Of a stretch of DNA of 64,000 nucleotides, positions 3,957-27,392 are shown piece by piece. Under the pieces are notes generated by a model. The model saw nothing but the letters and a program-made list of their open reading frames with translations, was not told the DNA's origin and did no database searches. A program made the position numbers and the translations under genes. How positions within the stretch are numbered: position 1 is the first letter of the stretch; every line of letters begins with the position of its first letter. This stretch comes from Hymenochaete sp. R1 (Eukaryota > Basidiomycota > Agaricomycetes > Hymenochaetales > Hymenochaetaceae): NCBI GenBank assembly GCA_019400425.1, contig JAFREE010000034.1, positions 1 to 64,000 of the forward strand. Reading direction: 5' to 3'.

Positions 3957-4242
3957 TGAGGACATTAGCAAATCACACAGACTGAATTCCATATCTATTA
4001 CTGTTTTCGTTACTATTTCCATCATTGGCTTGGGTAATGAATATCTGAAAGACTAGAAGAAGTGGCTTAGAAGAAATAAAAATTATTGTCAAAATAACAT
4101 AAGAGCTTTGTTAATACTACTATATTAGTTAAAAAATTACATAATTAAGCTATATCAGTAATTGTGCTTACATCACTAAGCTTGTGAACATTCATTTGAA
4201 ATGAGACCATAACCTTACAATTAATAGTTATTATGCAAAATA
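3957..4242. mobile_element. Left end of an older KDZ-type element (E1), split by E2
   Basis: This 286-bp block is an AT-shifted copy of the next 275 bp (4,243-4,517), sharing for example AGGACA at the start, CATTCAT..GAGACCATAA and TTATGCAAAATA at the end. The next 275 bp is the left end of the intact element. The simplest reading is that this block is the left end of an older relative, interrupted by the younger element at GCAAAATA. The right half of the older element resumes at 16,799, where the sequence matches the RING-gene 3' flank. The block carries many C-to-T changes relative to its young copy, as does the other half. Confidence 0.65.
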
Positions 4243-4735
4243 GGAGGACACCGGCAAATTGCGTGGATTAATTTCCATATCCGTCACCGTTTCCATCACC
4301 ACTTCCATCACCAGCTCGGGTAATGAGTAACTAGAAGACCATGCTAAAATGACATAAGAGCATTAGAAATACTACATTAGTTAGAATATTATGTACTACA
4401 TTAGTCAAAACATTTCATTACTCAATTACATCAGTTTGTGTGCTTACATCATCAAGCTTGTGAGCATTCATCCAAAACAAGACCAAAACTTTACAATGGA
4501 TGGTTATCATGCAAAATGGAGCCGTACAGAAGCAAAAGAGACTACAAATTGAGTTGGGAGTGGTGTTGACATTGAAGTACATGAAATAGAGACTGAAATA
4601 AAACAAGAAAATTCTATCTGTAGGTGCCAAACTCTCTCATTATGCGCACGACATTTTTTGCACTGAAACGTGCCATACACTGAAAACGGTATCTCAATGG
4701 AGGCAAAGAAAGAAAAAAAAACAGAACGTACACTT

Positions 4736-5155
4736 TTAAGTTTGAAACTCAGCCCTGCAACACGGGCAGGTGTATGCGAAGCGAGTCCCACGCCATTTCG
4801 TGTCCGTTACGCGCCAATTAACAATGCACCTTAAATGCCGAAGGTCAATATCAAACTTTAAAAATAAGAATAAAAAACATACCCCACGCAAAATGTATGA
4901 CGACAAGGGAGTGTCGTCGAGTTTTGTGCAATGACTGTCTCCAGACAGATCGCACATTCCTCCAAACACGAATAAGAAACAATAAATGATTGAATAGTCC
5001 AAACGCACCTCTTCCTGCTCAGCTCCGACAGCGCCGCCTTCCGCCTGCGCGTCACGCTGCTGCGCACCCCCAACCCACCCTCCCATGACTAAGACTGCGC
5101 TTAACGCAACAGCGGCGACGACGATGTTGTATAACGCGTTAAACAAAGCGTGCAT
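4736..5155 (-). CDS. Small membrane-anchored RING-finger protein (E2 cargo)
   Basis: Three exons (5155-5009, 4959-4883, 4829-4736) join in phase to a protein of about 105 residues. Residues 8-30 form one hydrophobic membrane segment (VVAAVALSAVLVMGG). An Ala/Gln/Glu linker follows, then a complete C3HC4 RING: CAIC, then LPCRH, TFC, VGC, and CPCC near the C-terminus. RING domains of this kind usually recruit a ubiquitin E2 enzyme, so a membrane-bound E3 ligase is likely. It lies near the left end of the transposon. Its promoter side carries TTCATTCGAA (5,322-5,331). A dead, AT-mutated paralogue lies at 17,036-17,446. The substrate is unknown. The intact RING beside a mutated copy suggests that this one is still under selection or is recent. 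Confidence 0.8.
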   Translation of the reverse strand: MHALFNALYNIVVAAVALSAVLVMGGWVGGAQQRDAQAEGGAVGAEQEEVRLDYSIIYCFLFVFGGMCDLSGDSHCTKLDDTPLSSYILRGVCFLFLFLKFDIDLRHLRCIVNWRVTDTKWRGTRFAYTCPCCRAEFQT

Positions 5156-5312
5156 TTTTTTACTGTGAGACTAAGAAAACATTAGTAAAACAAAACACTA
5201 AACTTAAATAACAACTATACACTTACCCGTAACGAGAGGAAGCAAGGTGGGAGAGCGCAAACGACGACAAGATGAAAGGAAGGAGCAAGAGTGAGTCAGA
5301 CAAAAATTTGAA

Positions 5313-5525
5313 CGATCTGCTTTCATTCGAAACCGCATCGCTGGATCGACGTCGGAGTGCAAAACCAAATAGCTATAGAAGGCAACAATAAAATATGTTT
5401 TCCTCGTACATCAATGCTATGCACATTTGTTTCGAACTGCGGAAGCGCAGTCAATCATCTGTGCGTCATATCCAAAATGATCGACGCGACGCGACTTCGA
5501 ATGAAACCAGATCGCGATCGACGCT
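5313..5525. promoter_or_regulatory. Inverted pair of TTCATTCGAA-containing blocks
   Basis: The block from 5,313 (CGATCTGCTTTCATTCGAAA, then CCGCATCGC) recurs in inverted form at 5,480-5,525 (CGCGACTTCGAATGAAACC, then AGATCGCGATCG). The arms flank about 125 bp upstream of the RING gene. The same core occurs upstream of the other genes of the element. This could be a shared operator or promoter element or a transposase-binding subterminal repeat. Only the repetition is seen; the role is inferred. Confidence 0.55.
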
Positions 5526-5691
5526 CACTCAAAGTGATCGACACTTACTTATAAAACACACTCCATGAATCTTCCACATTTAAATTACGGCAAGTAATTA
5601 ACATTTAAATTAAGACGTGTAATTAACATTTAAATTGAGGCGTGTAATTAATAGCGACATGCTTCTAGAACTAGTACTACAAAAGCTTTTA

Positions 5692-7590
5692 TTATATTTT
5701 TAGGCCTTTAGCCTGTCGAGAAGCGTGAAGCATCTCCCATGTAACGTTGTCAATCCCATACAAAGCTACTAACTCATCCGCATTAGCGTCCGTGGTTTGT
5801 TTAACCCTCTCACGATGTACCCGTTCTTGCGTATCTGTAAATATACCAATTGAATGACGGTACGGTTTTTTGTCCGCTTTCAGAAGAGACTTGTACTCCA
5901 GATTTATCTTTCGGGCAGCTGCAAACGATGTTGACGAAGCCCAGAGCAGGCTGTTTGGCTGCGAGGGAAGCTTAGGCATCGGGTGCTTCTGTCAAAGCGG
6001 TCCAATCATTAGTTTGCATCGCATTTCTTATGAATGACAGTCAACACACCTTGTTGGAGTTTGATTGTGCATCGAGCGGAGTCTGTGATGATCCAGCTTG
6101 CGGAGTCAAGGTGGAGGCATCCTGCTGTTTGAACGTACCGGTCAGCAGTGGCACGAGTGACGGTTGTGTTGCTCTGGACCGTGATGAAGCTTGTGACGGT
6201 GAAGGAGTAGGACTGTCATCCGGGATATGAATGATATCGTCTTGAAGCCAGTCCGTAGTGTCTGATCCACTTGATGCGGAGTGCTTGAGCAGCGGGGCTA
6301 TTGCGTTTCCTGGACCTTCATGTGCTGTGAGGTCAATTATTGGGCGGGAACTCGATGAGATGTGTTGCACAGCTGCTTCAGGAAGCTTGGCTGCTATAAG
6401 AGCCAAAGGTGTTCCTCGGATGAGAGTCATAATGTCGGGCGGAATGTGCTGACCGAGTGACACAGGCCATATCGCTATGTGGCTGCACGACGATCGCTGG
6501 AATGGAAAAGAAAGAGAGTGGGCTGCCGGACGCCCGTTCACGAGGTGGAAGAACAATGAGTCAGGGGTGACAAGGGGACCAAACACGTCTTTGAAAGCGT
6601 ATTTCGAACTGTCTGTGAGATACTGTATCGAAACGAACTCCTGTTTGACATAAAAGATGTCAAGCATGAATGCGATGTCTTTTTCCTAAGACGATTGCAT
6701 ATGATTAATTAAGCAAGGAGGCAACAATGATCAGGTAGGCACGTACCGAATGTTTGACATAAAGCCGGCCACTAGTTCGACCCTTTATATTGTTGGCTTC
6801 GGCCATGTTCCGCAGCTGAACTTCATTGTTCCAGTCTGCAATGGCATCGGTCCGTCGGCGAAGGTGATCGGGTCCTATCGGCTCAACGGTGATGTCAACG
6901 AGCTCACCGACATCCAGTTTCTCTTGAATTGCGGAATTCTTCTCTGGATGAACGTCGCATGGCTCCAATGTTGACTTGCAGTGTCGTGCACAGCGTGTGT
7001 TCTTGCAGCTTGCTGCTGCTGTCCAGGTGCACGTGCTGTGGACACAAGTCACTGCGGGAGGTTTACTTTTGGTGCCTTTGGTATTGGTCGACCCTTTGGG
7101 TCTGCCTCGGCCACGTTTGGGCGGAGCAGCAGGGGTCTGTGCGGGTGGCGTGGTAACTGGGGGGTCGATGGTAGGTGTCGACTGAAGGGCTGCTGAAGTA
7201 TTGAGTGCTGAAGGAGTCATATGGGGTTTCCAGTGTCTGAGTGTTCTGCGATAGGGATGGTCGGGGGGTAGCCTGTAAAGAGTTGTTGAGAAGGGGACTG
7301 GGTAGTGGACATTTGAGCTGCGATATAAGTTTATAACGTGTGTCGGATCAACAGTACACTGGATCGCACACGAGGTAGTGAGCGTCTTGAATGTATGATC
7401 GATTAAACGTAAGACGAACTCTTTGACATGCTACATCGCCGCTCTTTCGGATCCAAGGAAGACCTAGCGTTACATGCTCATGCCCCGGATACTTACAGAA
7501 CGTCATAGGGACAAGTCCCGCGAAAGGGTGGTAGGTCAGTGGGTTGCGAGACCACTGGTCAGGAACAAAATGCGCAGGTGGTACGGGCAT
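5692..7590 (-). CDS. AT-hook and Cys-cluster protein of unknown function (E2 cargo)
   Basis: At least four exons join on the minus strand. The first exon starts near 7590 (MPVPPAHFVPDQW...) and splices at about 7375-7330 into a long exon ending near 6,748. Further exons lie around 6,690-6,041 and 5,999-5,692. The N-terminal part holds CKYPGHEHVTLGLPWIRKSG. A Pro/Thr linker leads to an AT-hook (PKRGRGRPKGS), then a cluster of Cys and His (CVHSTC...CKNTRCARHC...CDVH) that should bind zinc. The tail is Ser/Pro-rich with a predicted helical end. AT-hooks bind minor grooves of AT-rich DNA, so a nuclear DNA-binding role in element mobility or regulation is plausible. I do not recognise the family. 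The start and the first intron are uncertain. Confidence 0.6.
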
Positions 7591-8120
7591 GGCGGGCTAC
7601 TGAAATGTTATTGCGTTGACAGAGTGGGGCTTTGGGGTGGATGAAGGGCCCTATTGCCTTTCAAAAGTGCGGCATAAATGGCGTATGAAGGACTTTTTCG
7701 ATCCGACTTGCGGGTGCTTTGCAGAGCAAATATCTTTAGTGCATTCATGAAGCGTACGCTAAAGTCTGTAGGCTTTACCTTAGGCAGGAAATCCCAGTCT
7801 TTTCCGCCCTGAATTGAAAAAAAAACAGGCGTGGGCCGCGATCCGCTTTCGAATGAAGCGGGACCGGAGCGACACGAAAGATAGCCAAACAAGACATGAA
7901 ACATTTGCGTTCGCCTTCGAACGAAGCGATAACGATGCAAATCAAACTTTGAAAATTTATGTTCCTGACAATGTAATCACACCAGTTCGTCATTATATAT
8001 GCTCACAGAAGATAGAATACGGATACAATGAGTTCATGACAGGAAATGGAAAGACCTTGGCGTATGTGGGGAACTACTTGTACATACACGATAGCTGTGC
8101 TTATCTGAGAGGATCGGAGT
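7591..8120. promoter_or_regulatory. Intergenic region with the shared element motif
   Basis: No gene is supported between the AT-hook gene and the large gene. The region holds TTCGAATGAA at 7,848-7,857, the reverse complement of the core seen upstream of the other element genes, set within GATCCGC...GCGGGAC. It also holds a related palindrome, TTCGAACGAA, near 7,917. A minus-strand frame at 7,608-7,940 is open but has no recognisable content and is probably 5' untranslated sequence of the AT-hook gene. Confidence 0.45.
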
Positions 8121-11100
8121 CTATGAGCTTTCGTCGCCCGAGTCCGGGCTCAGCGAATCATACGCTTCTGAATCCGTAGTAGCGGAGGCTGGCTGCGACC
8201 GCCACGACTCTGCCGTCGCTATTGAAAGAGGTTCTTCGCGACCTAAGCGGAGATCCTCCAACGTATACTCGGCGCCCGAGTCAGTCGAAGGTAGCTCTTC
8301 CAAGGCGCGGATGACTTTCACGGCGCTAGTACGCATGCGAGGACCTGCGTCAGTGTCACGGAACGCACGCAGACCGTCAATATTTTCAGTCTGCATGTAA
8401 ATAATAAGCTTTCGCCGCACGAATTAGTAACGAAAACGTACCCGTATGGCTTGCGCGTATTTGTATGGATCGGAGAGGAATGTGGCGATGAAGTGCGAGG
8501 TATACATCCCACAGTTGAACCCGTCCACTTGGCAACGTACATCGGGGAAGAACATCTCTGGGAGTTGGGGATTGTGAACCCCGTATCGCAGAGTCTGCCA
8601 GTACGTGAGTACGCGACTGGCAAGTTCCGACACTATCCTCGTCCCCCCAGCTCTGCCTAATGAGTCCAGGACGTACACGCTTGGGCGAACGAGCGGACGT
8701 TTCATTTGTTCGCGTTCGTTCTTGCTCAACCGCGTGTCGAAAACAACAAGCCATATGTGATTTCCTGCGATGAGTGGCACGATCACGAACCTGTACTTCC
8801 AAGGGTTGTACCCGATGTACACGAGAGTGCGCACAGTAGCCGTAAGACTATCGTCGCCGTCGGAATCCAAGTACCATGGGTTTTTCGCATCCGTGATTAA
8901 CTCCCAGCCGAACGCGTTGTGGTCCAGTCGTATTTCGTCCGCCAGAGCGCGATTAATCGTGCACAGCTGTTCCCATGGCGCTCTGTCGCATAAAGATAAG
9001 TATCGGTAGACTTGATGGGTCTGTGTTATACCAACTCACATTACCGGAACGAAAACGTACTTGAGATAGAGCATCGCGTCCTTTGCAAGACTTGCTGCAC
9101 TACTCGCCTCAAGTTCTAGGTCGTCCCCTTTGTGCCACGCCGCGAGACGTATTGACCACCTATGGTCCATTTAGCTGAGCCGTCAAACGATTTCGAGTGA
9201 ATTAAATACACGTACGAGTCTTTTCGAGTGACTTTTATAATAGTCTTTCGCGACGCGTCGGTGTCTTTCGCCTCCCAAGCCTCCTCCCGGCGCCTGAATT
9301 GTTCTCTTGCGTCGTCTATGTTCCAAGGACCGGTTTTTGACGACGGCCGGTCGATGGCATACGGTTGCAAGGAGCTATGCAACGGGACGCTCGCGCTAAA
9401 ACAGTCTTGCGAGATCCGTAGCCGTTCCAAGCGATCTCGGTGCACTATGAAATCATCGACCGCTTCGCGCAGGGAGGCTTCGAAAGCATCTCGACCTTCA
9501 CTCAACTCTTCGGCATGCATTATGCAGTCGATGGACCGCGGAATGTTATTGCATATAAACTCTAACATTGCGAGGACATCGGGGTCGGAGTGCCACGTCC
9601 GCCCGCCCTCCGGATCGAGATTGTTCAGCGGGGGCATAGCTGCAATGTGGAGTAGAAGGACGAATATGTACGCAACAGCAGAGGGGGGGGCACCCAGCAC
9701 AGTCAGCCGTCGTGCATCGTCTGCAAACAGTGCGTGAGACGATGGATCAGACCGAATAGTGGAATGATAAAGTAGACATACCATCAATAAAGTCTCTAAA
9801 TCTCCTGTTCCACGCCTTTACAAAGTTACAGACAGGCTGCAACGCCTCGGTGCAGCCAACAGTTATTGCAAGACTGTCCATATAATGTTCTGCAAGTACT
9901 GCCTGACTAGTCCACCGCATACGATCGAAGGAATAATAATGAGTGCCTTCGAGCACACTGTCGATCTGGGCCTTCGCGAACCACGGAACGCCGGGGGGTA
10001 AGTGTCTGTAAAGGCAAAGTAAGAACGGATCGAATCTGGCAAATAACACACACATCTTCTTACATTTCGTCTCCTTCCTTTACCACGACAACCTCGTGAG
10101 GCAGCAGGTGCCGACGTGTTTTGTCCATTTCAAGCACTTCAACGGGCGAATCCACCAACGTCACCGACACGCAAAGAATTCCAGACGTGACACGGATCGA
10201 GGTACACAACCCCTGTGGGGCTTGTCTCCAGCCGTGGATGGAAACGTTGGAGGTGAAGGTCAGCCACGACGAAAACGACTCCGTGGGAGGAGTCAATCCG
10301 GTGTTATACCACCACATACTCCCACCGAAAAGGCGTAAGTCATCAAAGTCCCTGTTAAACACGCCGCTGTGTCAGAACACAGACTCGCACGCGACACACA
10401 GGCACGTACCAAATCGTAGGAGATACTGACAACGGCACTTCTGACACCGTGATCGCTGCTGTATACTCCTCGGTCATTTGCGTTCGATGTTCTCGAAGGA
10501 AGCGCTCAGCGCTGCAAATTGACGCTTGCTTGAAAACATTTTCGACGGAGTCGTCGTTTTGTTCATCTGTCGAAAGTGAGATGCGAAAGAAACCGAGCGC
10601 AGTGTCACTTTTACTCACCGATAACCCAAAACTCTCGGAGTATGTCGGCCCCTTGCCGGCAAAAACAGTCACGTAGCTTGGTGGCTGGCTCGATGGACTT
10701 CACTGACTTGTCATCCACGACGAGGACGACGCTCATCCCCTGAGCGTGTCGGACTCGCTCCTCCCGTGACATCCGCAGCCATTGAGGTTTCGCTACGCAA
10801 CACATCTCCGGCGTTGGCGGATTCCTAGCGCTTTCCATTCCTGCGTCCTTGCGTCTTGAATTGCGCACGAGAGTCCTCAAAGACTTCGCGTTCTTCGTCG
10901 CTTCCTTAAATACAAAGTAAGACGCGGAACTGATCTTCCGAAACGAGTCTACTCACCTTTGTGTCATGAACGAGAAGAACGAACTGTTCCTCGGACACGT
11001 CAACTCCAATGCAAACGAGACCGAAACCCTCCTGCGTCGAGTTCAGATTGACGCGAGGAAGTGGAAGGTCAACTCGCCATCGAAACGGCTGCCATCGTCC

Positions 11101-14100
11101 AGACGTAAGATATTGCGTGACGGTGGACATGAAGCAGCAAGGAACTCACCCGTCCACGCTTTCCTGTCCATGTTGTAGAATTCGACGGCGCCTCAAAAGT
11201 TCGGGAAACTAACTCCCGTTTCACTCGGATGTCCTTGGATCCCGCGCTGAAAGTATGTTCGTCGTCGGACTCAGACGACGACGCAGAGACAGAAGTAGCT
11301 GTAACACGAGCAAACGGCTTCAGAGTGAAAAGATGAAGTATAATTGAGCGGAATCTTACTGCGGTGAGGCTCTGCGTTGTCTTGCGTCTGGCCAGTGACG
11401 GCGTCGGCGGGTGGCTCACTAGCAAGAGTCTCTGTCGACACTTGCTCAGACGTTCCAACGTCGACAACGTTTGCACGTCTGCGCCTCGTATCGTTGTACG
11501 GAAAGAGGTTTCGCACATCGTCCTGAGGTGTTTCGACGTCAGCGAACCTGTACGACTTGCCCACTTCTTTTTTTGCACGACCAGGTTGTAACCGCACGGG
11601 GTCAGCCTCATACTTGCCCTTGCCCTTCGAACCTGTCTTCGAAGGTTTACCGTGCGTCTCATGTGAGGGAATCGGTGGATTATCGATTTCCTCCATTTGT
11701 GTGGAGCGAACGTCCGAGGTTGCGTCTGCGTCGTATCCTTCCTCATCCGACCTACGCTCGAGAAGTTCCATCCAGTCTGGCACTTCTCCCTTTTGGTCGA
11801 AGAAGAACCCCTTGGCGTAATTTTTTTTCGACCCGGGCTTGAGATCTTGTGTCAAGACCTTCGAGAATCGATGGGCAACCCGGTACGGATTGAGCAGTCT
11901 TTTATCTTGCTTCTCCTGCGACACTCTAGTCCTCCACAGCGTCTTCATCTGTTCTCGTCGCGCGATCAGTTCTGCGTCTACGTCTCGTGATGCTTTTCCT
12001 CGGGCCTTGGGAGCGACTGAAGCCTTACGTGACGAAGGTAAGGAAACGGTCGGCATTTTCCCTGTGTTATGGCCATCGCCTCCCTGCACGCCTGTCTCCC
12101 CGGGTGCCATATCCTCGATATGAGCAACGGCATCACTTTGCGTCTGGAGCGATGTTCCGGGGTCGCTCCCTATAACGTTGCACCATGTCGCAGTCATAGC
12201 TCCCATACGCACATGATAGTCCTTCGGTCCGCTTATGGCCATATCAATGATCAGGCGGAAAAGGTCCTTCTCCACCTGGCAAATGTTTGACCCCTCCGCC
12301 ATCTTGGGAGCTATAGCTGCCTGAACGAGACCGTGAAGCGGGATTTTCCCTGTGCCGCGCACCGCTGGAAGTTTCCCTTGCAGAATCCAAACTGGACTGA
12401 TTGCGACTGCCGTGTACAGTGGGGTCAGCAGTTGCAGATCGTCGATGCCCTGTAACAATTGGGAAACCTCCCCTCCAAAAGCAGTCCTTCCACGAAACGT
12501 CAGTTATCGCCGAGATTGTAAAGGTTAGTGACGCACCCCAACAGTTCCCGAAGAGGCGTCTCGTCTGAACGCAGTTTGCGAGACTCGCCACCTTCGTCTG
12601 CGTCGTCCTCATCACTCAGGTCAAGCTCGTCCGGAGCGCGGCGTCCTCCTAGTCCGTAGCGCGATGCAGCACGAGCTTGGCCGCGCTGTTGTAATCAGAA
12701 ATATATGTGACGGAGATTACGAAAGTGAGCTATCGAATCCCGCGAGTTTTTTGAGCTTTTGCACGCACCAACATCAGAGCTCGAAGACCAAGCGCGCACA
12801 GGCACATGAGTTCTTCGACGTGCAATGCGAGGGCTTTTCCCTCCACGAATTTCGCTCGGCGCACTAAGCTGCGCACAGCGAGCGAGGATGCTTCATCGCT
12901 CGTTCCCTTCTTGAATTCTGCTGCTTGTTGGCCTGGCAGTACTTCGCCGTGAACATTCGATTGTCCTTCGGTCGCGCGAGCTACAGAGTATTTCTGCAAC
13001 ACGACCTCCCATTCCACCACGTCTCCCACGTTGTCCATTGCTCTGTCGTTAATCATGTACGGTTCCACGCACACTCGGTGGTTCCCGTCTGGGTCTTCGA
13101 ACTGAGCCGTGTCGGAGTCGGCTATGGATGCGTCCACAATGCGGTCCAGCAACAAGAGTTGCAAAAGACCGTGGTGGACGACGGAGTTTTGGCCTCCGGA
13201 TATCGCCGTCGTTTTGAAAGCCGCCTTGGAGAGCCATCTTCGGTCGTGGTGTGAGTGTCTCGCGCTGAGGTCGACGATGCAGTTGAAATGGTGGCAGAGT
13301 GTGTATATGTCTCGGAGACACTCTGCCCGTTTCGCGTCTGCCACAGTCACACCCGGTGCGCTCGTACCCGTAAATTTCAGTGCTTCCTGAATAATGTGTC
13401 TTCGAGTGCTTCGCGGCACGTTATAGCGCAGGGATTGTGCGAGGGGGGACACCAGGAACAGAGCCTTGGATTCTTCAATACCCCCGCCAGCCAGAGTGGC
13501 CAGTTCGTACACGTCGCTCACAGTAACCTGGAAGAGGGACTTATCTTCGTTCCGAATGGACTCCTGCGCAAGTGCAACGACTCCAGACGCTGCAAAGTCT
13601 TCTTTGCGAGTATCGTCGATTCCATTGTCGACGTCGTCGTCTTCGCCCTCTTCTTCGTCATCGCTTTCCCCCTCGCCATCTTCTTCGCTCTCGTCTTCGT
13701 CTATGTCGTCCGCAACCTGATGACCGAAGGCAGTTTTGCCTGCTTTTCCGTGGCCTGAAGACGCTGCAGGCGTTGCGTCGCCACTCGTCCCGCTTGCCGA
13801 CTGAGGTCGGTCCCCATCATCAACGTCAACGTCGCCGTCGCCGTCGAGCTCAGTTAAGTCGGACAGGGTTGATTCGCTGCGTTTGCGCTTCAGTCCATGT
13901 GCTGAGGGCAATCGATCACCCGCAATGTCCTTGCGCACGCTCGATTCTGACGTCGCTGCTGAAGACCCCGCTTCTTCACCACTCCCAACAGCCACGCTCT
14001 TGTCCTCACTTGCTGTTCGTATTTGAAGACGATTGCTTCGCCGCGTAGCAGGCGCCAACTCCACTCGCGATGCGTGCTTTGCTCTCTTCGTTTTCCGCAC

Positions 14101-14271
14101 GTTCATCCCCTTGTTTTCTCCTTCAGCCACTTTTGAGTCGCTGTGAGAGCGAACTGCCGCGTCCTCGCCCAAGGGTCCTTGATCAGTCTTGGAGCCGGAT
14201 TTTGAGGCTGTCGGGACTGGTGTTTTTTGTCTTTTCGCAAGGGGTGGAGACATGGTGGTGGTGAGAAGCAA
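8121..14271 (-). CDS. Very large JmjC-like / Ulp1-protease fusion protein (E2 cargo)
   Basis: About a dozen exons read continuously in phase on the minus strand, giving roughly 1,700 residues. The first exon (14,271-12,769) is disordered with nuclear-type basic clusters, then a long Asp/Glu run, then a folded region. The next exons (about 12,685-11,100) are charged and low-complexity. A beta-rich domain follows (about 10,930-9,750) with SNVSIHGW, GLCTSIRVTSG, VVVKEGDEM, LPPGVPWFA and EGTHYYSFDRM, which resembles a JmjC-type double-stranded beta-helix. The C-terminal domain (about 8,990-8,430) is a C48/Ulp1 protease: NHIWLVVFD (His), YVLDSLG (Asp), and CQVDGFNCGMY (Gln and catalytic Cys). Ulp1 enzymes cleave SUMO-like modifiers. 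The JmjC-like part lacks an obvious HxD iron site. The junction near 12,535 is the least certain, and two genes rather than one remain possible. Confidence 0.6.
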
Positions 14272-14331
14272 AGACGTGGCGCGTCACCCGAGCGCCGATT
14301 GACGATCATGCCGCGCGTCACACACGTGACT

Positions 14332-14371
14332 CGCGATCCACTTTCATTCGAAATCGCATCGCGATTTCAAA
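14332..14371. promoter_or_regulatory. Shared motif upstream of the JmjC-like/Ulp1 gene
   Basis: GATCCACTTTCATTCGAAAT followed by CGCATCGCGATTTC lies 60-100 bp upstream of the first ATG of the large gene. The core TTCATTCGAA is at 14,343-14,352. The block is close in sequence to the one upstream of the RING gene, and ATCGCATCGCGAT is itself nearly palindromic. Confidence 0.5.
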
Positions 14372-14392
14372 GGTCCATTCCTCTAATTCAAA

Positions 14393-16501
14393 CTAAAAAT
14401 ACATGAATTCTTTTATCCCCACTTCATGTGGTGCTTTCCCAGCCTTTCTCAGTGCCAGTATAGTCCCTTCATTTCGTAAGCGCAACATTTCGTCCAAAAA
14501 AAAGTTATACCGTAATTTTTTCATCTCCCTCACTATTGGTAAAAACCTTCCGAACCATGCGTTTGTCTGCTCCGCTGCAGACGAATTCCACCTCCAGGCT
14601 ACTTCGTTTTTGTCATTGATAAACCAAAGATCTCTGAAACGAGCAGGATTGCAGTGTGTTTGACACATTAGGTCTGTTCCTTTGTGCTTTGCAGTGTGGT
14701 GAAAGACATCGACAGGTGTCACCTTCTGGAGCACATGCGAGTTCGGATATCTTTTTGTGACGTACTTCCGCATGGTGCATGCATTGTCGTAGTACATGAC
14801 TGAGGGAAAGGACCTCAATGTTGGATAAAGTTCCATCCAGTATTGCTTTTCTATATGGTCAGATTTCTCTCAAATGTTACTCAAATGCGACTCACGTAAA
14901 CTTGTCTCAATGACTCTGCATGGAAGAGTGTTTTCCTCCCTCGAACAACACCACAGCATCCAATGACCAAAAGATCACAGAATGTTCTATTTCGTTTCCA
15001 GTACCCTCGAACGTGTTTTTTTTCCTCCTGAATAGTCTCGGGGCTTTCTTCAGCTTCATCTACCTCATCTGCATCGATATTACTCTTTGCAGTGACGATG
15101 TCTTCAACTGGTATTGGTAGCATTTTCCTCAGACGTTCCATTGCCTTCTTGTCTTTTTTGTAATTGTCCTCCGCTTCTTTGTGGCTTGGTAATTGACATG
15201 TTTCTCTCCCATTTTCCTTTATGTTGGTACAATCACGTATAGCACATACATGACCTTGATCTTGATGCTGAGGACAGAACTTCTTCTTTGGTGATTCGAG
15301 ATCGATCTCGCAGTATGGGACAGAGCATGCTGGATGCCCAATAACTATTCCATCTGTTACGTCGGCTCGCAAAAAACCAACTTCACACATCAGCCCATAA
15401 GCTTGCACTTGTTGCCGTGGACAAACTTACTGGTTTCCCCGGATTCATTGGTTTTGAACTCATAGCATATGTCACAGGCATGTCGCAAAGCAGGATTGCC
15501 TATGTCAGCTAACCGAAAGTTTCGAGACTGTATTGGTTCATTCAGGGAAGTGGCGATATTCCCATGTGTGTGTTCCAAAGATTCCCCTCGCTGTGCTGCG
15601 TCTTGCAAGAGGGCGTGCAACAAGAAACCCAAGGTGACAATGTGCGGTTTGAGGTCCGCATTCGGAATTCCCATACTCTGAACAAGTATTGATTCTTTGG
15701 ATCCATTATATATGTTTGCGTGGTTTGTGAATGATACCCTACGGATAATTTCATGTTAGTCTTTCCTGCAGTGTTTTCTACAATCCACTTACCATGCATG
15801 CATGGTAGTGCGGGCTATGGAGCTACACAAGCTCTCCTCCATGTAACTTCTTGCTGTTACTTCTATGAATCGTGTCATTCCTCCATAGTATGTTCGCCTT
15901 CCATCTCGAACATAGTAGTTCGGATGATGGGTTATGTTGCAGGCTGCATTATCAATTCATTTTGGGTCTTTTCATAGTATTAGACATAGGAATACCTTTA
16001 TTTCTGCACCGCCGTTTAAATGCTACTGCAGGAACAGGCCCCAAATGTTGGGTGTAAACAATAGGTGTGCTTTTGAAGATTTCCTGCAGTGGGTTATTGC
16101 AGGAAATGCATGTGGAGAATGGTGAAGAGAAGCGGTAGTATGCTATTTTGTGTGGATTAATGTGCTGCTCATTGTAAACTAGGTTTCTTACCGATTCTAC
16201 TTTGAATTCCATACCGGTTGAAGTCATGCAGAAACTCGGGTGCCTCTTGATATTCAGCATTGTAAATAAAGTTTTTATTCTCGTTCCACAGTTTCACTAT
16301 GACTTTCTCGGATTCGACTTCAAGGACTCTGGCTACAAAGAGCTGGATATGTCGCGGAAGCCTTTTGGGTGGCTTGAGATTTGGTAGTGCATGTAGATAA
16401 GGTTGTAAGTGGATCAATAGTTTGAGAAATTGTAAAGATTGCTGCTGCTCTTGAATATGATTCATTTGTGTTCCCGTGTTGTGGTCGTGCTGTTTTCTCA
16501 A
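14393..16501 (-). CDS. KDZ-type transposase-related protein with CxC5/CxC6-like Cys clusters
   Basis: Six exons (16501-16192, 16142-15996, 15943-15793, 15738-15431, 15380-14896, 14845-14393) join in phase to 617 codons with no internal stop. The first cluster reads CISCNNPL, YTQHLGPVPA, CRN, CNITHHPNYYV (CxC5-like). The second reads HPACSVPYC, KKFCPQH, VCAIRDC, TCQLPSH (CxC6-like). The C-terminal part has the catalytic-type blocks MYYDNACT, VDVFHHTAKH, CNPARF and NSSAAEQTNAWFG, then REM..RYNFFLDEM. These are the hallmarks I know from fungal proteins tied to the KDZ (Kyakuja-Dileera-Zisupton) transposase superfamily, and the D/D/E positions seem present. It should move the element by cut-and-paste. 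Its promoter holds TTCATTCGAA at 16,570-16,579, about 70 bp upstream. Confidence 0.75.
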
Positions 16502-16743
16502 TCATCATGTGCAGTCTTATACCTTGCTGAAGGGCAGTAGATGGATGCCCTTTGCCCGCCCGATGTGACTTCATTCGAAGTCGGACCGTACTCAGAGTTA
16601 CATATTTGTATGTAATTCCTATTGCTTTATCTCAATTATGTAATAACATTATTACCTAAATTATGTAATATAATCTTTACCTAAACCAGTCCCGGAACTG
16701 GACTTTATAAGCCCACCAGCCGTCTCTGACCCGGTCGGCTTCT

Positions 16744-16798
16744 TGATGGAAACGGTGATGGATATTAAAATATGATTGGCACTATCCCTGGGTGTTCT
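16744..16798 (-). repeat. Right terminal inverted repeat of E2
   Basis: Read inward on the minus strand this starts AGAACACCCAGGGATAGTGC and reaches ATATCCATCACCGTTTCCAT, matching the left end at 4,243-4,298 in order and spacing. A second copy of the same right end lies at about 26,668-26,724 and stops at the same base (GGTGTTCT), which supports this boundary. Confidence 0.65.
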
Positions 16799-17640
16799 AC
16801 AAAATAGAGAGATAAAGGAACAAAACAGACAGAGCATTGAATTGAGAGTGGTTTTGACATTGGAATACATGAAAAAGAGACTAAGATAAACAAAAGAAAA
16901 CTCTATTTAAAGGTACTAAAATCTTTTATTCTACGCACATCATCATTTGCACCAAAATGTGTAATTCACTGTAAATGGTGTTACAATAAAAGCAAAAAAA
17001 AAGAAGAAAGAAGAAAAGATCATACATTTTCAATTCTGAAACTCAGCCCTACAATATGGGCAAGTGTACACATACTGAGTCCTACACAATTTTGTGTCTG
17101 TTATATGCTAATTGACAATGTACTTTAATTCCTGAGACTGAATATTAGACTTTGAAAATCAAAACAAAAAATGTACCCCACATAAAATGTGTGACAACAA
17201 GGGAGCATCATTGAGTATTGTAGAATAGCCAGCTCCAGGCAGATTACGCACTCCTCTTAAAACAAATGAGAAATAATGAAATTTTGAACAATCAGAATGC
17301 ATATCTTGCTATACTTCTTCAACTGCACTACCCTCAGTCTGCACATTGATCTGTGGTGAACTACTAAACAGCTCCCCAACTACCACTATAACAACTAATG
17401 CAATGGTGGTAATAGTGATGTTATACAGTGTATTAAACAAAATGTTCATTTTTTGAATGTGTTACTAAAAAAATATTAAAACAAAAAAAGACTGAACTCA
17501 AAGCACAATATAACATTCACCGGAAATGCACAAAAACAGTGAGGGAGTGAGATTCAACAATGATAAGATGATTGTAAGAAAGAAGAATGAGTCAGACAAG
17601 AAAAATAATGGTCTGCTTTCATCTGAAACTGCACCTGTCA
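16799..17640 (-). mobile_element. Right part of the older element (E1) with RING copy and flanks
   Basis: From ACAAAATAGAG onward this matches the RING gene of the young element and both its flanks (4,510-5,340), but with pervasive C-to-T and G-to-A changes. Homology stops near 17,640, where the young copy continues CATCGCTGG and this one reads CACCTGTC. It joins naturally to 3,957-4,242 if the young element is removed. Confidence 0.65.
17036..17446 (-). pseudogene. Dead paralogue of the RING gene
   Basis: The start (MNILFNTLYNI) and the membrane segment can still be read, and all three exons align to the gene at 4,736-5,155. The end of exon 1 has gained a TAG and lost its GTGCGT donor. The RING has lost key residues: CRHTFC has become CCHTFY. 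Nearly all differences are transitions, for example TGCAACACGGG to TACAATATGGG. It is not expected to give a functional protein. Confidence 0.8.
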
Positions 17641-17722
17641 GGAATCCCTCCTTTTTCCCCTATCATTTATTCCTTCTATGATTATACTATTCACGTGACT
17701 TCTGCTTTACAGTTCTTGTTCC

Positions 17723-18179
17723 TGTTACAGTTCAACACCGTTCATGTGCTTAGTCAAGTACTCCGCTTACTTCATTTCCTTTCTTTGTCATCTTCTTCTT
17801 TGTATTTCTATGACATTCCGTGCACATGATCGCATGTGATCTGTGCACAGCATCAGTCAGCACCTTACTAAGGCACCTTCCTTATTCATCCATTTCTTCT
17901 CATGTACTAGTACACAGCCTCGTAGACGGGTGGCCTATATAAGGGCCTCATCTTGTAGCTCTTGTACTTTAGATTTGACCTTCTGTCTCTTCCGGTCAAT
18001 ACATCTTGTCTTTACTCTCCTGTCTTATAGAACTATCCCTGGTTGGGATATCTTACTTGAACTCTGTCTAATCAGTTACCTAAGCCGGAGCTTAGGCCTG
18101 ATCTCTTGTAATCTCAGGTCGCTGTCACGTGACTCTGATTTATCAGACTCCTGATCAACATCTTGATCGGACTCTAACA
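17723..18179 (+). repeat. Solo LTR, family A, with perfect 5-bp target duplication
   Basis: The 457-bp repeat runs from TGTTACAGTTCAACACC to GGACTCTAACA. It is flanked on both sides by GTTCC (17,718-17,722 and 18,180-18,184), the 5-bp duplication typical of LTR elements. A TATA-like CTATATAAGGGCC lies near 17,935. No internal region is present, so it arose by recombination between the two LTRs of a full element. It shares its family with 20,293-20,748 and 535-991. Confidence 0.9.
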
Positions 18180-18560: not shown

Positions 18561-18965
18561 TGTTACAACAATAAAATCCCTAACCTAAATTTTCTTTATT
18601 GTTCTCTTTTGTTGACTCATTTTCTTTTGTATTCTATTATTGTTTCATGTTTCATCTCATGATGATGTCATTTGACTCCACATGACTCACTTCTGGAACC
18701 TTCTCTTGTATTAGTCAGATAGTCCATGCACAGCCTGCACAGCCTCCATATGTAGTATAAATAGAGGGCAAGCTTTGGTGTTAGAACCTCAGCTTGACCT
18801 CTTAGTTCTCAATAACTATTTGGTTACAAGATCTCTGATAAAGCCTCAGCTTTAAGAACTATCTCTCTGAACTCTACTCTGAAGTTATAACCTTTGACTA
18901 CAAAAGGTGTCAATTTGGCTTAGTAATCAAGCCTTAGATAAGCCTTGCACCGAAGTTCCTTAACA
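18561..18965 (+). repeat. 5' LTR of the gypsy element
   Basis: It begins TGTTACAACAATAAAATCCC and ends AGTTCCTTAACA. A TATA box (GTATAAATAGAGG, near 18,757) should drive transcription. The sequence just inside (TTAGGTCAAGCTCTGGAAC) is where a tRNA primer site is expected. Confidence 0.9.
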
Positions 18966-19097
18966 TTAGGTCAAGCTCTGGAACAAGCACTCCATTATTC
19001 ATTAACATTGAGTCTTTTCAGTACCTTACAAAAAGGGAATCGATACTCTAGTTGAAATTGGCAGATAGTGCAATACTAGACAGGATACAGAAGAAAC

Positions 19098-20283
19098 ATG
19101 GCCGGGCCTAGCAAAAATCCACAGAACCCTGAAGGACAGGGAACAAATGTACCTGCAGCAGGAGTTGCTGCCAGCATACATACCCCAAAACAACCAAGCG
19201 ACTATGACTGAGTCTTGGCAGAAACACTCTGAATGACACCTCAGCAGGTGATGCAGATTAGGAGGTTAAAGAGCATACCCATCAGCAGAGCCCTACCTAG
19301 AGAACCAGCAAAGCAAATCATGATCCCGATCAAGGAGGCAGAGCCCTTCGATGAAAACCCTACGAATGCACGCAAATTTTTACAGAGGCTTCAACTAGAA
19401 TTTGACGTGAATCCTCAACTCTATGAGGAATTCGATCCGGTCACTATGATGACAACCTCCGATTGACCCATAGTGAGACATGCACTCTCACTACTGACGA
19501 CTAGCAAGAATCCGACAGTACAAGACTTTGCGGATCTCCAATTGTGCAGCTATAAAGCAAAAGGAATGTGGCCCTCCTTTGAAAGTTTTAAAGCCACCTT
19601 CGAATCTCAGTTTGTCACAACAGACGAAAAAGGGGAAGCTATCAAACAGCTAGTGCAGATTGAGATGAAGGACACTGAAAATGTGGACCAATACACAGGA
19701 CGTTTCAAACTCCTAGCTCAGCAGGCTGGAGTCACTGACAATGAAATGCTCAAATTGCATTACAAAGACGGGCTCATTAGTAGCATCAAGAAGTGGATGG
19801 TCAACTACGGCGGAAAAGACACATTTGACGAGATGTGCAAAGCAGTGCAGCAACAAGATGCTTGCTAGAGGGCAACAAATCAATCTAGGAACCATTACAC
19901 AGGGTTGATTATATGCCAGGATCAGCATTACGTTAAAGACATCGATGGGAACATTGAAATGGCTATGATTCAGTCCTCATACAAGAGGCTCACTCAGGAA
20001 GAATGAGAGCAATACTAGCATGAAGGAAAGTGCTTCCGTTGCGGATGAAAAGGTCATCGTGTCAAGGAATGTACTCAGAAACCCTTTGAAAAGAAGGATA
20101 AACCCAAGAAACAGTCGAACAATCCCTTTAGACAAAGACAGATTGCAGTACAGGGGGCTTCGGAAGCTGGCTCAAGTGACAAAATTGGAAAGCGAGCAGC
20201 ACAGATTATGAAATGGATGAAGGAAGGAACAGAGGAGGAACAGAAGAAGCTGAAAGAGAAGTGTGAGAAGGGTTTTGCTTGAG
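19098..20283 (+). pseudogene. gag of the gypsy element, broken by stops
   Basis: From ATG at 19,098 one frame covers a typical gag: a capsid-like helical region (ARKFLQRLQLEFDVNP, then WPSFESFKATFESQF, QYTGRFKLLAQQAGV) and a CCHC zinc knuckle near 20,030 (CFRCG-KGHRVKEC). The frame is cut by several TGA or TAG codons. Most fall where a Trp is expected, for example inside the knuckle, so they look like TGG-to-TGA/TAG changes. The frame then enters the nested LTR. Confidence 0.8.
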
Positions 20284-20292
20284 GCTACTCAG

Positions 20293-20748
20293 TGTTACAG
20301 TTCAACACCGTTCATATGCTTAGTCAAGCATACCCGCTTACTTCATTTCTTTCTTTGTCATATTGTTCTTTGTCTTTCTTTAACATTCCGTGTACATAAT
20401 CGCATGTGATCGTTGCACAGCATCAGTCAGTGTCTTACTAAGACACCTTCCTTCTTTGTACATTTCTTCCCTTGTACTATTGCACAGCCTTATAGATGGG
20501 TGGCCTATATAAGGGCCTCACCTTGTAACTCTTGTACTTTAGATTTGACCTTTTGTCCTCATTGGTCAATACACTTGTTTCTTGTCTCCTGTCTTAAAGG
20601 ACTATCTCTGGTTGGGATATCCTACTCAAACTCTGTCTGTTAGTCACTTGGAGCCGGAGCTCTGGTGCTAACCTCTTGAACCTCAGGTCACTGTCACGTG
20701 ACCCTGATTTGTCAGACTCCTGATCAATGTCTTGATCGGACTCTAACA
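20293..20748 (+). repeat. Solo LTR, family A, nested inside the gypsy element
   Basis: This 456-bp LTR (TGTTACAG...CTCTAACA) lies between gag and protease of the gypsy element and matches the LTR at 17,723-18,179. The 5-bp flanks CTCAG and CCCGG differ by two transitions, which fits a target duplication altered by the same C-to-T process. Its insertion is younger than the gypsy element. Confidence 0.8.
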
Positions 20749-23700
20749 CCCGGACCAATGACGAGAGTAGCTGCAGAAATACCTGCTGTAATTACAAAAT
20801 CAACTGACGAATCATGAATCTTTGTTCCGGTTGAAATTACAGTGGGGTCAAAAAATGTTGGAGCTAGTACCCTGATTGACTCAAGAGTAGAAGGGTTATT
20901 CATTAACCAAACACTAGTTGATAAACATCGAATCCCTAAAGAAAAAATGACATGCACAGTCACTGCCCAAAATGCAAATGGGACTCTAAATCAAATAGGC
21001 ATTATCACGGAAAAGGCAACAATCCTCATAAATATTGGCTCAAAAATGTCAAAAGAGACATTCTGGATCACAGCTTTAGGGAACTACAATATGATCCTAG
21101 GACATCCATGGTTGGCACGACAAAATCCAATCATTAACTGGAAGGAACAAACAGTCAAACTCTCAGCTATGAGACGAATGAACAAGGCAACCAAACTAGC
21201 ACAGGTACACTATCAGAAGGACAACCGCACATTAAAAGAACAAGTCCCTAAATACCTTCATTCTTACCTAGATGTGTTTGATGAAGAAAAGGTAAAGGTA
21301 TTTCCACCATCAAGATTATATAACCATTGCATTAAACTTAAACCCGGATTTGTCGAAAAGAAGGCTAAGGTTTATCCTATGTCTCTACCAGAAGAAAAGA
21401 TGCTAAATGACTTCATTGATGAAAATCTGGCAAAAGGGTATATTGTACCATCGGAATCCCCACAAGCATCCCCAGTATTCTTTGTTGCCAAAAAGGATGG
21501 GACTGGACATCTATGCCAGGATTACAGACGGCTTAACACATACATGGTGAAAAACTCATATCCATTGCCTCAAATTGGTGAAATCATGGACGTAACCAAA
21601 GACTGGAAATACTTCACTACCATTAATGTCAAAGCAGGATACAACAACATTCGTATGGTAACCAAGGAAGACCAAGAACTGGCCGCTTTCATAACTCATT
21701 GTGGAAGCTTTCAACTAACAGTAATGTTCTTTGGACTATGCAATTCTCCAGCAACCTTCCAGGCTTTCATGGATGACATATATGGTGATATCAAAAGAAA
21801 GATAAAGGGCAGTGTATACATAGATGACATCATTACAGGGGGAAAAGATTTACAGGAATGTATCTAGAGGACGATCAAGGTTATACAGATTATGGATGCA
21901 AATGGACTGCATGTAAAAATATCCAAATGCAAATTCTGTGTAGAATCTGTTCCATATTTGGGAATGATTTCATCTGCTGGCAAAATTGAGATGGATCCTG
22001 TCAAACTTGAAGGAATTTTTGGATGGCCAACACTGGCGAAAGTCAAAGACGTCCAAAAATTCCTAGGCTTTGCCAACTTTTACAGGAAATTTATTGCTCA
22101 TTATGCGGATATCTCAAGACCTCTGACAGACTTGACACACAAGAACATCATTTGGGAATGGCAAAATGACCGGCAGAAGGCTTTTGACACGCTTAAAGAA
22201 GCATTCCTCTCGAAACTAATTCTGCAAATTCCAGATTCTAGTCATCTATTTATACTGGAAACAGATGCATCCAAATATGCGACAGGAGCTGTATTAATGC
22301 AAGAAGACACCAATGGAGACTTGAAACTATGTGGATTTATCTCCCAATGATTTAACAAAGCGGAACAGAATTACCAGATTTACGACTGGGAATTACTAGC
22401 AATTATTAGGGCTTTCAAAACATGGAAACACTACCTCTTAGGGAACAACACGCTTATTCGATGTGACCACAAGAATCTCCTGTATTTCAAAGACCCACAA
22501 GTCCTGATACCAAGACAGGCCCACTGGCAGATATATCTCTTAATGTTTGATTTCCAAATCACATATATTCCAGGACCACAAATGGTACAAGCGGATGCAT
22601 TGTCACAACGACCAGACCACATGGAAGATGATGAAGAAAACCATCCAGAGATGCTACTACCTGACTGGCTTTTCCTATCTGCTATAGGAGTAAGCAGTCA
22701 GGACCAGGACTTGATGAACAAACTACAAATGACAGGACGACAGGACAAAATCCTCTTACAGGCTGTAGAAGCATTGAAGAACAGAAAACTACCACCTCTT
22801 AGATCATCTGTAGGTGACTGGTATATTCATGACGGAATCCTGTTCTACAAGGGATGGATATACATACCAGATGACCTGAACCTCAGATGTGAAATAACTA
22901 GGTGATATCACGATCTTGAATCAGCAGGACATCCAGGACAACATGGAACCTATCTTGCGATCTATTGAACTTATTGGTGGCCCAGAATGGTGGTGTTTAT
23001 TTGTAACTATATTGATGGCTGCACTATTTGTCAACAGAACAAAATTAATACACATCCAACCGCACCTCTGCTTCTTCCTATCAGACCGGATCAAGAGATG
23101 CTTCCATTTTCTAACATCAGCATGGACTTTATCATGCAATTACCAGACTCTGAGGGATATTTGGCCCTATACGTCATTGTGGATTACTTATCTAAAGGAA
23201 TCATTCTAATTCCATGCACAAAGGAAGAAGATGCTCTCTCAACAGCCAAGATGTACCACGATCATGTGTACAAGCGGTTTGGACTCCCCAAAGTGATGAT
23301 ATATGATCGAGGACCACAGTTTGCCTCCAAGGTCTTTCAACAACTGTGCAAAAAGTTGGGCATAGACTCATGAATGTCAATAGTGTATCACCCTCAAACA
23401 GATAAGCAGACAGAATGAATGAACAGGGAAATCAAAGCCTTCCTACGGATATATTGCAGCTCACATCCAGAAGAATGAGCTCAACATCTAGATGATCTGG
23501 AATTCTCATACAACCAATGTGACAATCTGAACAGTGGAAAAACTCCCTTTGAAATTATCATGGGATACAATCCAGATGTAATTCCGACCTTCTCAATTAC
23601 TTCACAGTTCCCAGCCCTGGAGGATCATCTCAGACAGATATGTGATATTTGGAAAGAAGCACTAGCAGCACAGAAAATGGCACGTATCCACATGACTGAA

Positions 23701-24159
23701 AGATACCTATCAGCATATACTCCATTCTGGAAAGGAGACAAGGTTTGGCTAGAAGCAAAGAACCTTAATGTCGGAGGAACTTATCAGAAACTTTGAACAC
23801 TTTGTGAAGGGCCATTTGTCATTGAAGAAGTCATGGGACCCTTAACCTACAAACTCCGGCTACCAGAAGATTGGAAGATCCATCCGGTATTTCATGCTAC
23901 ACTTCTATCACCATTCAAAGAAACAGGAACACATGGTCCATCATTCAGTATGCTACCCCCTAACCTTATCAACAAAGAAGAAGAATATGAAGTAGAGACG
24001 ATCATCTGACACAGAAGGACCAGAGGAAAAGGGGTCCAATACCTTATCAAATGGATGGGATATCCAACGTCGGAAAATTCATGGATCTCCGAAGAAGAAC
24101 TGGGAAATGCCACAGACCTTCTAGAAGCCTATAAAAGGAGAACTGGACTTACCAAATAA
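20749..24159 (+). pseudogene. pol of the gypsy element (protease, RT, RNase H, integrase, chromodomain)
   Basis: Read in one frame with stops: a degenerate retroviral-type protease (TLIDSRVEGLFI, where DSG is expected), RT (VFFVAKKDGTGHLCQDYRRL; TINVKAGYNN in place of the usual LDVR block; YIDDI intact), RNase H (LETDASKYATGAVLMQED), integrase with zinc finger CTICQQNK and core (MDFIMQLP, DYLSKG, YDRGPQFAS), and a C-terminal chromodomain (GVQYLIKWMGYPTSENSW). The chromodomain class usually inserts into heterochromatin. At least six internal TGA or TAG codons lie at Trp or Arg positions, so the product is dead. Confidence 0.88.
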
Positions 24160-24172
24160 ACAATAAATCAAC

Positions 24173-24424
24173 ATGGATGCTCTCACAATCTCCGCCGTTC
24201 TCATTGTCATCAACCTCTCGCTAATCACCCTTACCCTCATGACCTGGTTCATTTACAAGTACCTTTATTATTGCCGACAAGAAGCTATTGATTGGCGCCA
24301 ACCAATTCAAAACTGGAGACAAGCAGTATCCACAACATATCCAATCCTCACAGACATTGAAGCCTCTCATCCCTATGCTGATGAAGAATCTGAATATGTC
24401 ACTGCAAACAGTGGTCAACAATGA
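24173..24424 (+). CDS. Small membrane ORF downstream of the chromodomain (ORF3a)
   Basis: An intact 83-codon frame starts 14 bases after the pol stop. Residues 5-31 are strongly hydrophobic (ISAVLIVINLSLITLTLMTW), followed by a Tyr/Arg-rich patch and an acidic tail. One membrane anchor with a short cytoplasmic tail is predicted. I do not recognise it. It lies inside the retrotransposon, where no gene is needed, and is one of at least two extra reading frames there. Confidence 0.5.
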   Translation: MDALTISAVLIVINLSLITLTLMTWFIYKYLYYCRQEAIDWRQPIQNWRQAVSTTYPILTDIEASHPYADEESEYVTANSGQQ

Positions 24425-24585
24425 ACAGGATGGAACGATATAAATGACCAACAAGCTTGAATTGTTCTAACAGTTCAATATGAGCGACCCCAACACTATC
24501 ACAACAGTTAATGTCTCACTTTATCCCGTTTCCACCACAAACTACTCTGTTGGCCTATCAAGCGAAGGCAACCTCTTCCTGATTA

Positions 24586-25353
24586 TTGATATCTTCTACG
24601 GCATTCCCATTGTCAGCACTAAACGCATCATCAGACTCCATGTTGACAACACCACTCAATCATGAGCCATCCTACACACCCTCTAGACCATCACCAACCT
24701 TTGTGCCACTTCATTCCAAACTCATGGCCCCCATTTGTTCCGTCTCCACACCTCAATCTTCAGCCCTTGTATATCCCACTAGGACGTACAGGCTTATGCG
24801 CTCCTCGCAAGCATCCAATTGGGATATGGGGAGGTCTACATTGATTCCATCATACACTGTACAGGAAGTGTGCCAGGACCTGATTGAAGAAGTTGGCGAC
24901 CAAATGGAAGAAGAGACACTGACAGCACGTATAGATCTGGAATTTATCGAAACATTTGTATGCTCTAATGATCCTGACCACTGCACCCATCTAAATGAAC
25001 CCGGTCCCCACTGGAACCAAGACAACAACTGGACCTTCCTGACGCTTGAACAAGACATGCATACGTACCACGAGGCGGACAAAATAGCCAAGGACCAAGC
25101 GAAAGAGGCACTTCGATTGGAGCAGGAAATTAGATTGATTTGAGATGATGTTGCATTCCAGCGAACACGACAAGGCCGTTTCATCCACTGGTTCTATCAG
25201 AAAAATCTTCACGACCACATTCGTAACATTGAGTCTCACTATGGCATACACCACCCACTATCTGTACTGCCACCAAGACCAGAAAGACCAACACAACCAG
25301 CTGAAACTGAGGACGATGATGCTGAGGAAGTTACAGATAATGACACAGTTTAG
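24586..25353 (+). pseudogene. Large 3' accessory ORF of the gypsy element (ORF3b), one internal stop
   Basis: A frame of 185 codons ends in TGA at 25,141, and the same frame continues open to TAG at 25,351-25,353, so the ancestral product was about 255 residues. It has a Ser/Pro-rich N-terminus, an acidic centre (CQDLIEEVGDQMEEETL), a helical Lys/Glu stretch (EADKIAKDQAKEALRLEQEI), a WFYQKNLHDHIRNIE block and an acidic tail. I do not recognise a domain. The single TGA fits the Trp/Arg-to-stop pattern of the rest of the element. Confidence 0.5.
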
Positions 25354-25458
25354 ATTTTGTTTGATTTTACTTGCAAATTTTTTCTTTTTTTTTTCTCTTT
25401 GATTGTTTCATTGAAATATTTTCGAAAAACAGTGTCTTTCGTCTAGAAGGGGGGGTAA

Positions 25459-26724: not shown

Positions 26725-26732
26725 CTGCAAAA

Positions 26733-27196: not shown

Positions 27197-27392
27197 TACA
27201 TTTCTTTTCAAAGGTTTGGATCATACTGGTCAAGACATCAATTATCCCAACAAATAAGGATGAAACATCTCATGGATCATAAGTAAGATTCATCTGCATT
27301 CTCATATGGGATTGAACACCCCTGTCGAATATACCTATTCTAGGTGTTGTTATATTACATACAACAACCACTTATTATACAAGGCAGATTTT

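Follow-up and report, generated by a model that had tools for sequence, protein, structure and literature searches.

The stretch of DNA analysed here (64 kb of contig C265 of Hymenochaete sp. R1, hereafter the window) contains a DNA transposon of 12,556 bp at positions 4244–16799, with GAGGACACC at one end and GGTGTTCT plus one further base at the other. From left to right it carries genes for a small RING protein, an AT-hook and Cys-cluster protein, a giant protein with a peptidase-like C-terminal domain and a CxC5/CxC6 protein; the gene models place all four on the same strand, as the first-pass annotation of this DNA had proposed, and this is the minus strand. That annotation had set the unit one base to the left (4243–16798) and read its flanks as GCAAAATA and ACAAAATA. 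The unit is real, but the actual target-site duplication is CAAAATAG, a perfect 8-mer present at 4236–4243 and again at 16800–16807, and the ends given here are set by this duplication together with six other insertions of the family. The imperfect terminal inverted repeats described earlier are present as 28-nt arms, 89% complementary, at 4271–4298 (plus strand) and 16744–16771 (minus strand), the outer bases being GAGGACACC... and ...GGTGTTCT. Both arms carry the terminal motif CACCGTTTCCATCA, of which the left end has a second copy, with two mismatches, at 4297. Defined inverted-repeat ends and a target duplication of fixed length (8 bp) are what is expected of cut-and-paste by a DDE enzyme.

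We searched the whole genome (27.8 Mb in 336 contigs) for further copies. It has 6 matches to a 34-nt left-end pattern and 7 to a right-end pattern, against none for the reversed-pattern controls. Identical copies of the left pattern stand at the ends of contigs C275, C90, C183 and C204 and identical copies of the right pattern at the ends of C109, C117, C293 and C52; each of these four young left ends matches exactly one right end via a perfect 8-mer (TCACACTC, GGAATTAA, CTTGCTTC and CAGGAAAC), a pairing for which the 8-mers themselves are the basis. Counting the window copy, the duplication is perfect in five of the seven insertions that have both sides visible; in the remaining two, the flanks of the copy in C114 agree at 7 of 8 positions, and the duplication of an older relic surrounding the window element is imperfect. 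Identical ends with 8-bp flanks had been predicted for other copies, and the identity of the end patterns at four young sites is a hint of recent movement of the family. A decayed full-length copy, C114:2631–17247, is collinear with the window element over 12,478 aligned bases at 85% identity and has matches to all four genes in the same order, several of them containing stops. Partial copies lie in C9, C228, C254 and C308. In C228 the AT-hook gene is only about 0.8 kb from the transposase start, and the giant gene is therefore missing there.

The CxC5/CxC6 gene (14393–16465, minus strand; exons 16465–16192, 16142–15996, 15943–15793, 15738–15431, 15380–14896 and 14845–14393) encodes 605 amino acids in an open frame with GT..AG introns of 49–54 nt. 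Its domain assignment is borne out by Pfam matches obtained on an earlier model of 596 amino acids (CxC5, 2.5e-22; CxC6, 3.4e-20). We retrieved 45 relatives, from many mushroom-forming fungi; an acidic triad is conserved in this family and corresponds to a putative catalytic triad of D303, D475 and E547 in the window protein. Together with intron-rich genes, the named relatives suggest an Agaricomycete-like fungus. The predicted structure of one relative, P0002, has an RNase H-like core resembling those of the ISCth4 transposase and retroviral integrases. Judged by these models and by homology, the CxC5/CxC6 protein is very likely the element's own transposase. Among the top-ranked literature matches, judged by title and the start of the abstract, no paper identifies CxC5/CxC6 proteins as transposases or reports this combination of genes.

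The first-pass annotation had called the element KDZ-type, after the transposons comprising Zisupton, Dileera and Kyakuja and represented by KDZ1–3 of Cryptococcus neoformans (PMC12730594, PMC12810828). Part of this stands: CxC5 and CxC6 are associated with KDZ transposases in their Pfam descriptions, and the element has both the CxC cysteine clusters and an 8-bp target duplication. Sequence comparison gives no clear sign of membership in KDZ proper: the KDZ profile PF18758 gives no match to the window protein (596-residue model) at E ≤ 1 and touches only 2 of 31 relatives, with a best E value of 0.0055. The only KDZ gene seen in the genome, a PF18758 match in C260, carries stops in its frame and is not matched by the CxC5/CxC6 profile.

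A feature that is new here is a dyad motif standing upstream of all four genes. Its core, TTCATTCGAA, occurs five times in the element and is absent from the remaining 51 kb of the window, against an expectation of 0.05 under a first-order Markov model (60 simulations, maximum 1). The candidate operators lie at 5314–5341 (plus strand) and 5486–5513 (minus) upstream of the RING gene, at 7838–7865 (minus) upstream of the AT-hook gene, at 14335–14362 (plus) upstream of the giant gene and at 16562–16589 (plus) upstream of the transposase gene; for the RING, giant-protein and transposase genes the distance to the start codon is 95–346 bp. The surrounding 28 bp or so form a partial dyad, in which the five perfect-core copies have 7–9 matching pairs among the 12 that flank the centre, and a one-mismatch core copy at 7916 has 5 of 12. 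Random centres give about 3 of 12 pairs, and at least 7 in 366 of 20,000 cases, although the five copies are not independent, three of these pairs being part of the core that they share. When the genome was scanned with the extended motif (≤ 3 mismatches), 3 sites came back, all among the element's own five. At ≤ 11 mismatches the corresponding places are recognisable in C9 (5), C254 (6), the RING gene of C114 (7 and 8), the RING gene of the relic (8) and the transposase gene of C228 (9), and the core before the giant gene of C114 is kept with one mismatch. Since the dyad precedes each of the four genes and is absent from the rest of the window, they may form one regulon.

The RING gene (4736–5155, minus strand; exons 5155–5009, 4959–4883 and 4829–4736) encodes 105 amino acids with a hydrophobic N-terminal segment, recognised by eye, followed by a RING-HC domain (zf-C3HC4, 3.2e-08) in which the C3HC4 zinc ligands are present. 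It is a real gene for a predicted RING-type E3 ligase, and the earlier description as a membrane RING protein fits. The AT-hook protein (468 amino acids; 5692–7220, minus strand; exons 7220–6747, 6685–6050 and 5988–5692, the 5′ end being uncertain) is likewise the product of a real gene and was named appropriately: the AT-hook KRGRGRPKG and a Cys cluster can be read by eye, and it has no match in Pfam, NCBIfam or PDB.

The giant gene (8121–14253, minus strand) is a prediction of our own gene predictor and has paralogs elsewhere in the genome; its 13 modelled exons encode about 1,767 amino acids: an acidic N-terminal part, a conserved middle, a cupin-like stretch lacking metal ligands and the C-terminal peptidase-like domain. 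Database searches for relatives of the protein found none among the best 7,989 and 7,994 candidates scored, which is weak evidence of absence because these searches need exact 5-residue words and score only the best candidates. The first-pass annotation regarded this protein as a JmjC-like/Ulp1 fusion, of which the Ulp1 half survives. The Ulp1/SENP-like domain (8442–8982, minus strand) has the H, D and Q-x5-C motifs, with His, Asp, Gln and Cys in order in NHIWLV, YVLDSL and QVDGFNCG; the Asp and Cys stretches align to SENP7, whilst the His was placed by eye. Its match to SENP7 has an E value of 0.017 as a single sequence and 0.0046 with a three-sequence profile, the next matches being unrelated (E 0.28–0.31). 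Relatives differ at these sites: the Cys is replaced by Ser in C137 and the Asp by Asn in C114. A single-sequence structure model of this exon was discarded (mean pLDDT, a model confidence score, 37.2).

The JmjC-like half (9830–10351, minus strand) finds no support. It gave no Pfam JmjC or cupin match at E ≤ 1; against PDB the single sequence had one match, to a bacterial adhesin (E 0.00041, with no individual stretch passing), which we take as chance, and a profile search matched only the cupin-4 protein 4csw (E 1.4). At what we take to be the JmjC motif positions, the expected HxD and second His are absent, W-R-Q-A or W-H-R-A and P-W or S-W replacing them in the window, C137 and C178, and a JmjC enzyme was rejected. 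With these metal ligands missing from the window copy and from both paralogs, nothing points to demethylase activity. Two other frames lie near giant-gene relatives. A TET/JBP-like dioxygenase frame at C178:1449–2135 (PF12851, E 0.007; 2OG-FeII_Oxy_3, E 0.001; both below cut-off) is tail to tail with a diverged giant-gene paralog modelled at 4340–9089, and a partial ubiquitin-like frame at C254:3710–4030 (PF00240, 1.3e-14, positions 1–42 of 72) lies about 4 kb upstream of the giant-gene copy there.

Differences outside CpG sites favour third codon positions in two of the cargo genes: by codon position they number 110, 92 and 165 for the giant gene against C254 (p 7e-6) and 36, 34 and 63 for the AT-hook gene against C114 (p 0.003). 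The CpG sites themselves have decayed in the sister copies. In C114, 741 of 1,705 window-copy CpG sites (43%) read T, compared with 6–15% in other contexts and 16 of 314 in the reverse direction, and the observed/expected CpG ratio is 0.31, against 1.12 in the window copy. Across C114, C9 and C228 such CpG-specific C-to-T differences affect 42–47% of window-copy CpG sites, although hypermutation is reportedly not detected in Agaricomycotina (PMC12730594). Strict TCG hypermutation was considered and rejected: every CpG context decays, with TCG at 52% against 37–43% in C114 and no excess in C9. The preferential loss of CpG in decayed copies suggests that host CpG methylation and deamination have acted on the family. 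The window copy has not escaped entirely: compared with the young left end in C275, 12 of 30 CpG sites have changed in the window copy and 0 of 10 the opposite way, and in 1-kb bins its leftmost 1 kb has 11 CpG decayed and 9 kept. Given this loss at its left end, the window copy is not the youngest.

The window element lies inside an older relic of its own family. The left end of the relic (3958–4243, plus strand) is 69% identical to the first 274 bp of the element; its continuation (16800–17633, plus) is 69% identical to window 4512–5337 and includes a decayed RING gene in pieces at 17036–17449; and its right end (25864–26733, in the segments 25864–26059 and 26535–26733, plus) is 87–90% identical to window 16411–16805. 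An uninterrupted version of the target sequence is present in the element's own left part. Within the relic, at 18561–25863, there is a Ty3-type long terminal repeat (LTR) retrotransposon with 405-bp LTRs that are 98.3% identical; its frames are broken and hold pieces of reverse transcriptase and RNase H. A repeat of about 460 bp is present in three copies (524–997, 17717–18179 and 20293–20759) at 81–85% identity, one inverted relative to the other two; these are perhaps solo LTRs. Direct and inverted repeats that we cannot explain overlap at 26327–27198, inside and just past the right end of the relic.

Considering these features together, we think that the window probably holds an apparently intact, autonomous-type transposon with a CxC5/CxC6 DDE transposase, four genes coordinated through the dyad, and cargo that helps the element. 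The transposase would recognise the terminal repeats through CACCGTTTCCATCA at both ends, excise the 12.6-kb unit and reinsert it with an 8-bp target duplication. We propose that the four genes are co-expressed, because each upstream region has the same dyad operator, to which one dimeric regulator might bind; our guess would be a host factor or the AT-hook protein that the element itself encodes. The accessory proteins are most likely of benefit to the element: its Ulp1-like domain may strip SUMO (or some related modifier) off the transposase, or off chromatin and repair proteins where the element lies, and a host target may be ubiquitinated by the membrane RING protein. The idea put forward in the first-pass annotation, that the cargo edits ubiquitin and SUMO marks to control movement or silencing, is plausible, and an anti-silencing role would be compatible with the shared operator and the CpG decay.

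Several observations weigh against this reading. The transposase call uses a structure model of a relative at 33% identity to the window protein, and Foldseek with that model returned 74 matches at E ≤ 10, of which not one reached E ≤ 0.001. The PF02902 match of the peptidase domain is weak (E 0.023; 15.0 bits against a cut-off of 20.7). The operator of the AT-hook gene is 633 bp from a modelled start whose 5′ end is uncertain. In C114 the AT-hook and transposase operator places have 10 mismatches, and these rest on position only because the best chance matches across 34 kb of host DNA are just as good. The sequence between the young paired ends is absent from the assembly, and since no interior was found for them the young copies may be short or non-autonomous. 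Finally, giant-gene relatives occur on six contigs, with the four-gene order confined to C265 and C114.

Three other explanations have to be weighed. The closest to the proposal above, and compatible with it as a variant, is that the peptidase and RING protein influence transposition itself or DNA repair, perhaps by stabilising or releasing the transposase complex, rather than chromatin silencing. The membrane-like segment of the RING protein would locate it away from chromatin, and a role in transposition or repair has been suggested for the Ulp1/OTU domains of Ginger1 (PMC2836005). The CpG-biased decay of C114 and other copies, in contrast, suggests methylation-based silencing pressure on the family. 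We regard this variant as a serious possibility, though not quite the one we would lean towards.

The second alternative is that the three other genes are passengers, remnants of host genes or of other transposons that were caught between the ends and are moved without being of use to the transposase. Foreign genes are often carried by transposons, and seven of the nine codon-position tests, including both for the transposase, gave p > 0.05. The first-pass annotation had held that scattered genes without shared ends, or unrepeated ends, would speak against its transposon, and it expected the same four genes in order between matching ends elsewhere. The ends are repeated and C114 keeps the order, but in four of the six contigs giant-gene relatives do occur without this transposase (C254, C137, C178 and a contig-end piece in C122). 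No convincing inverted repeats were found around these four; in C254 there is no transposase in the 8.2 kb upstream of the giant gene, and homology to the element begins abruptly at about 8195. Against passengers, all three genes are kept in order in the diverged C114, RING or AT-hook pieces recur in C9, C228 and the relic, all four genes are preceded by a common motif, the gene models have open frames in the window and two of the genes have a codon-position bias. On balance passengers seem unlikely.

The third, that the CxC5/CxC6 protein is an accessory DNA-binding protein and another enzyme (a true KDZ transposase or a retroelement enzyme) acts in trans, is very improbable: the KDZ gene in C260 and the lack of a significant Foldseek match would fit, but the CxC5/CxC6 family has an RNase H-like core and a conserved acidic triad, the C260 frame has stops, and the 8-bp target duplications are unlike those of Copia, which are about 5 bp. 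It takes its precedent from Pleurotus, where no KDZ gene was seen near CxC5/CxC6 genes and cooperation with Copia was proposed (PMC7641404).

That system is among the closest known. The 6.8-kb insert in MSH4 of Pleurotus ostreatus likewise looks mobile, is present in several copies and has a CxC5/CxC6 frame of comparable length (660 and 739 amino acids reported), and two Pleurotus genomes have 44 and nearly 60 CxC5/CxC6 copies; unlike the element here, the insert was linked to a Copia retrotransposon (2020 paper, PMC7641404). Its main text contains neither the word transposase nor terms for inverted ends or target-site duplications, and the passages covered do not mention Ulp1, RING or AT-hook genes. 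KDZ1–3 resemble the window element in size (about 9–11 kb), inverted ends and duplications of 8 bp (KDZ1) or 4–8 bp (KDZ2 and KDZ3), but have CxC1 and a KDZ domain where the window element has CxC5/CxC6 and no PF18758 match (PMC12730594, PMC12810828). According to the same sources, in the parts considered, fungal KDZ elements also have Cys clusters and cargo genes, and target duplications are 8 bp in Zisupton and KDZ1 and 7 bp in Kyakuja. The cargo they report is a TET/JBP dioxygenase, different from that described here, and the two TET-bearing Kyakuja families of Laccaria differ further in having 7-bp duplications and no inverted ends. Ulp1 domains in DNA transposons are already known from Ginger1 and Mutator-like elements; in Ginger1 the domain is fused to a transposase resembling Gypsy integrase, whereas here it ends a separate giant protein encoded next to a CxC5/CxC6 transposase (PMC2836005 for Ginger1).

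In conclusion, the element makes it likely that CxC5/CxC6 proteins serve as transposases, and its defined ends and target duplications offer something to look for elsewhere. We would also raise, tentatively and as something we consider rather doubtful in its full form, the view that CxC5/CxC6 proteins, whose only label to date is that of KDZ-associated clusters, are a transposase lineage of their own and that the element is a self-regulated four-gene regulon, in which one dimeric regulator on the dyad would switch on the transposase, a SUMO-type peptidase, an AT-hook targeting protein and a RING ligase together against silencing by CpG methylation. With a single upstream dyad across its genes, the transposon lends itself to a direct test of self-regulation, and its SUMO-type peptidase, set against sister copies with CpG decay, provides a concrete test case for counter-silencing by routes other than TET/JBP enzymes.

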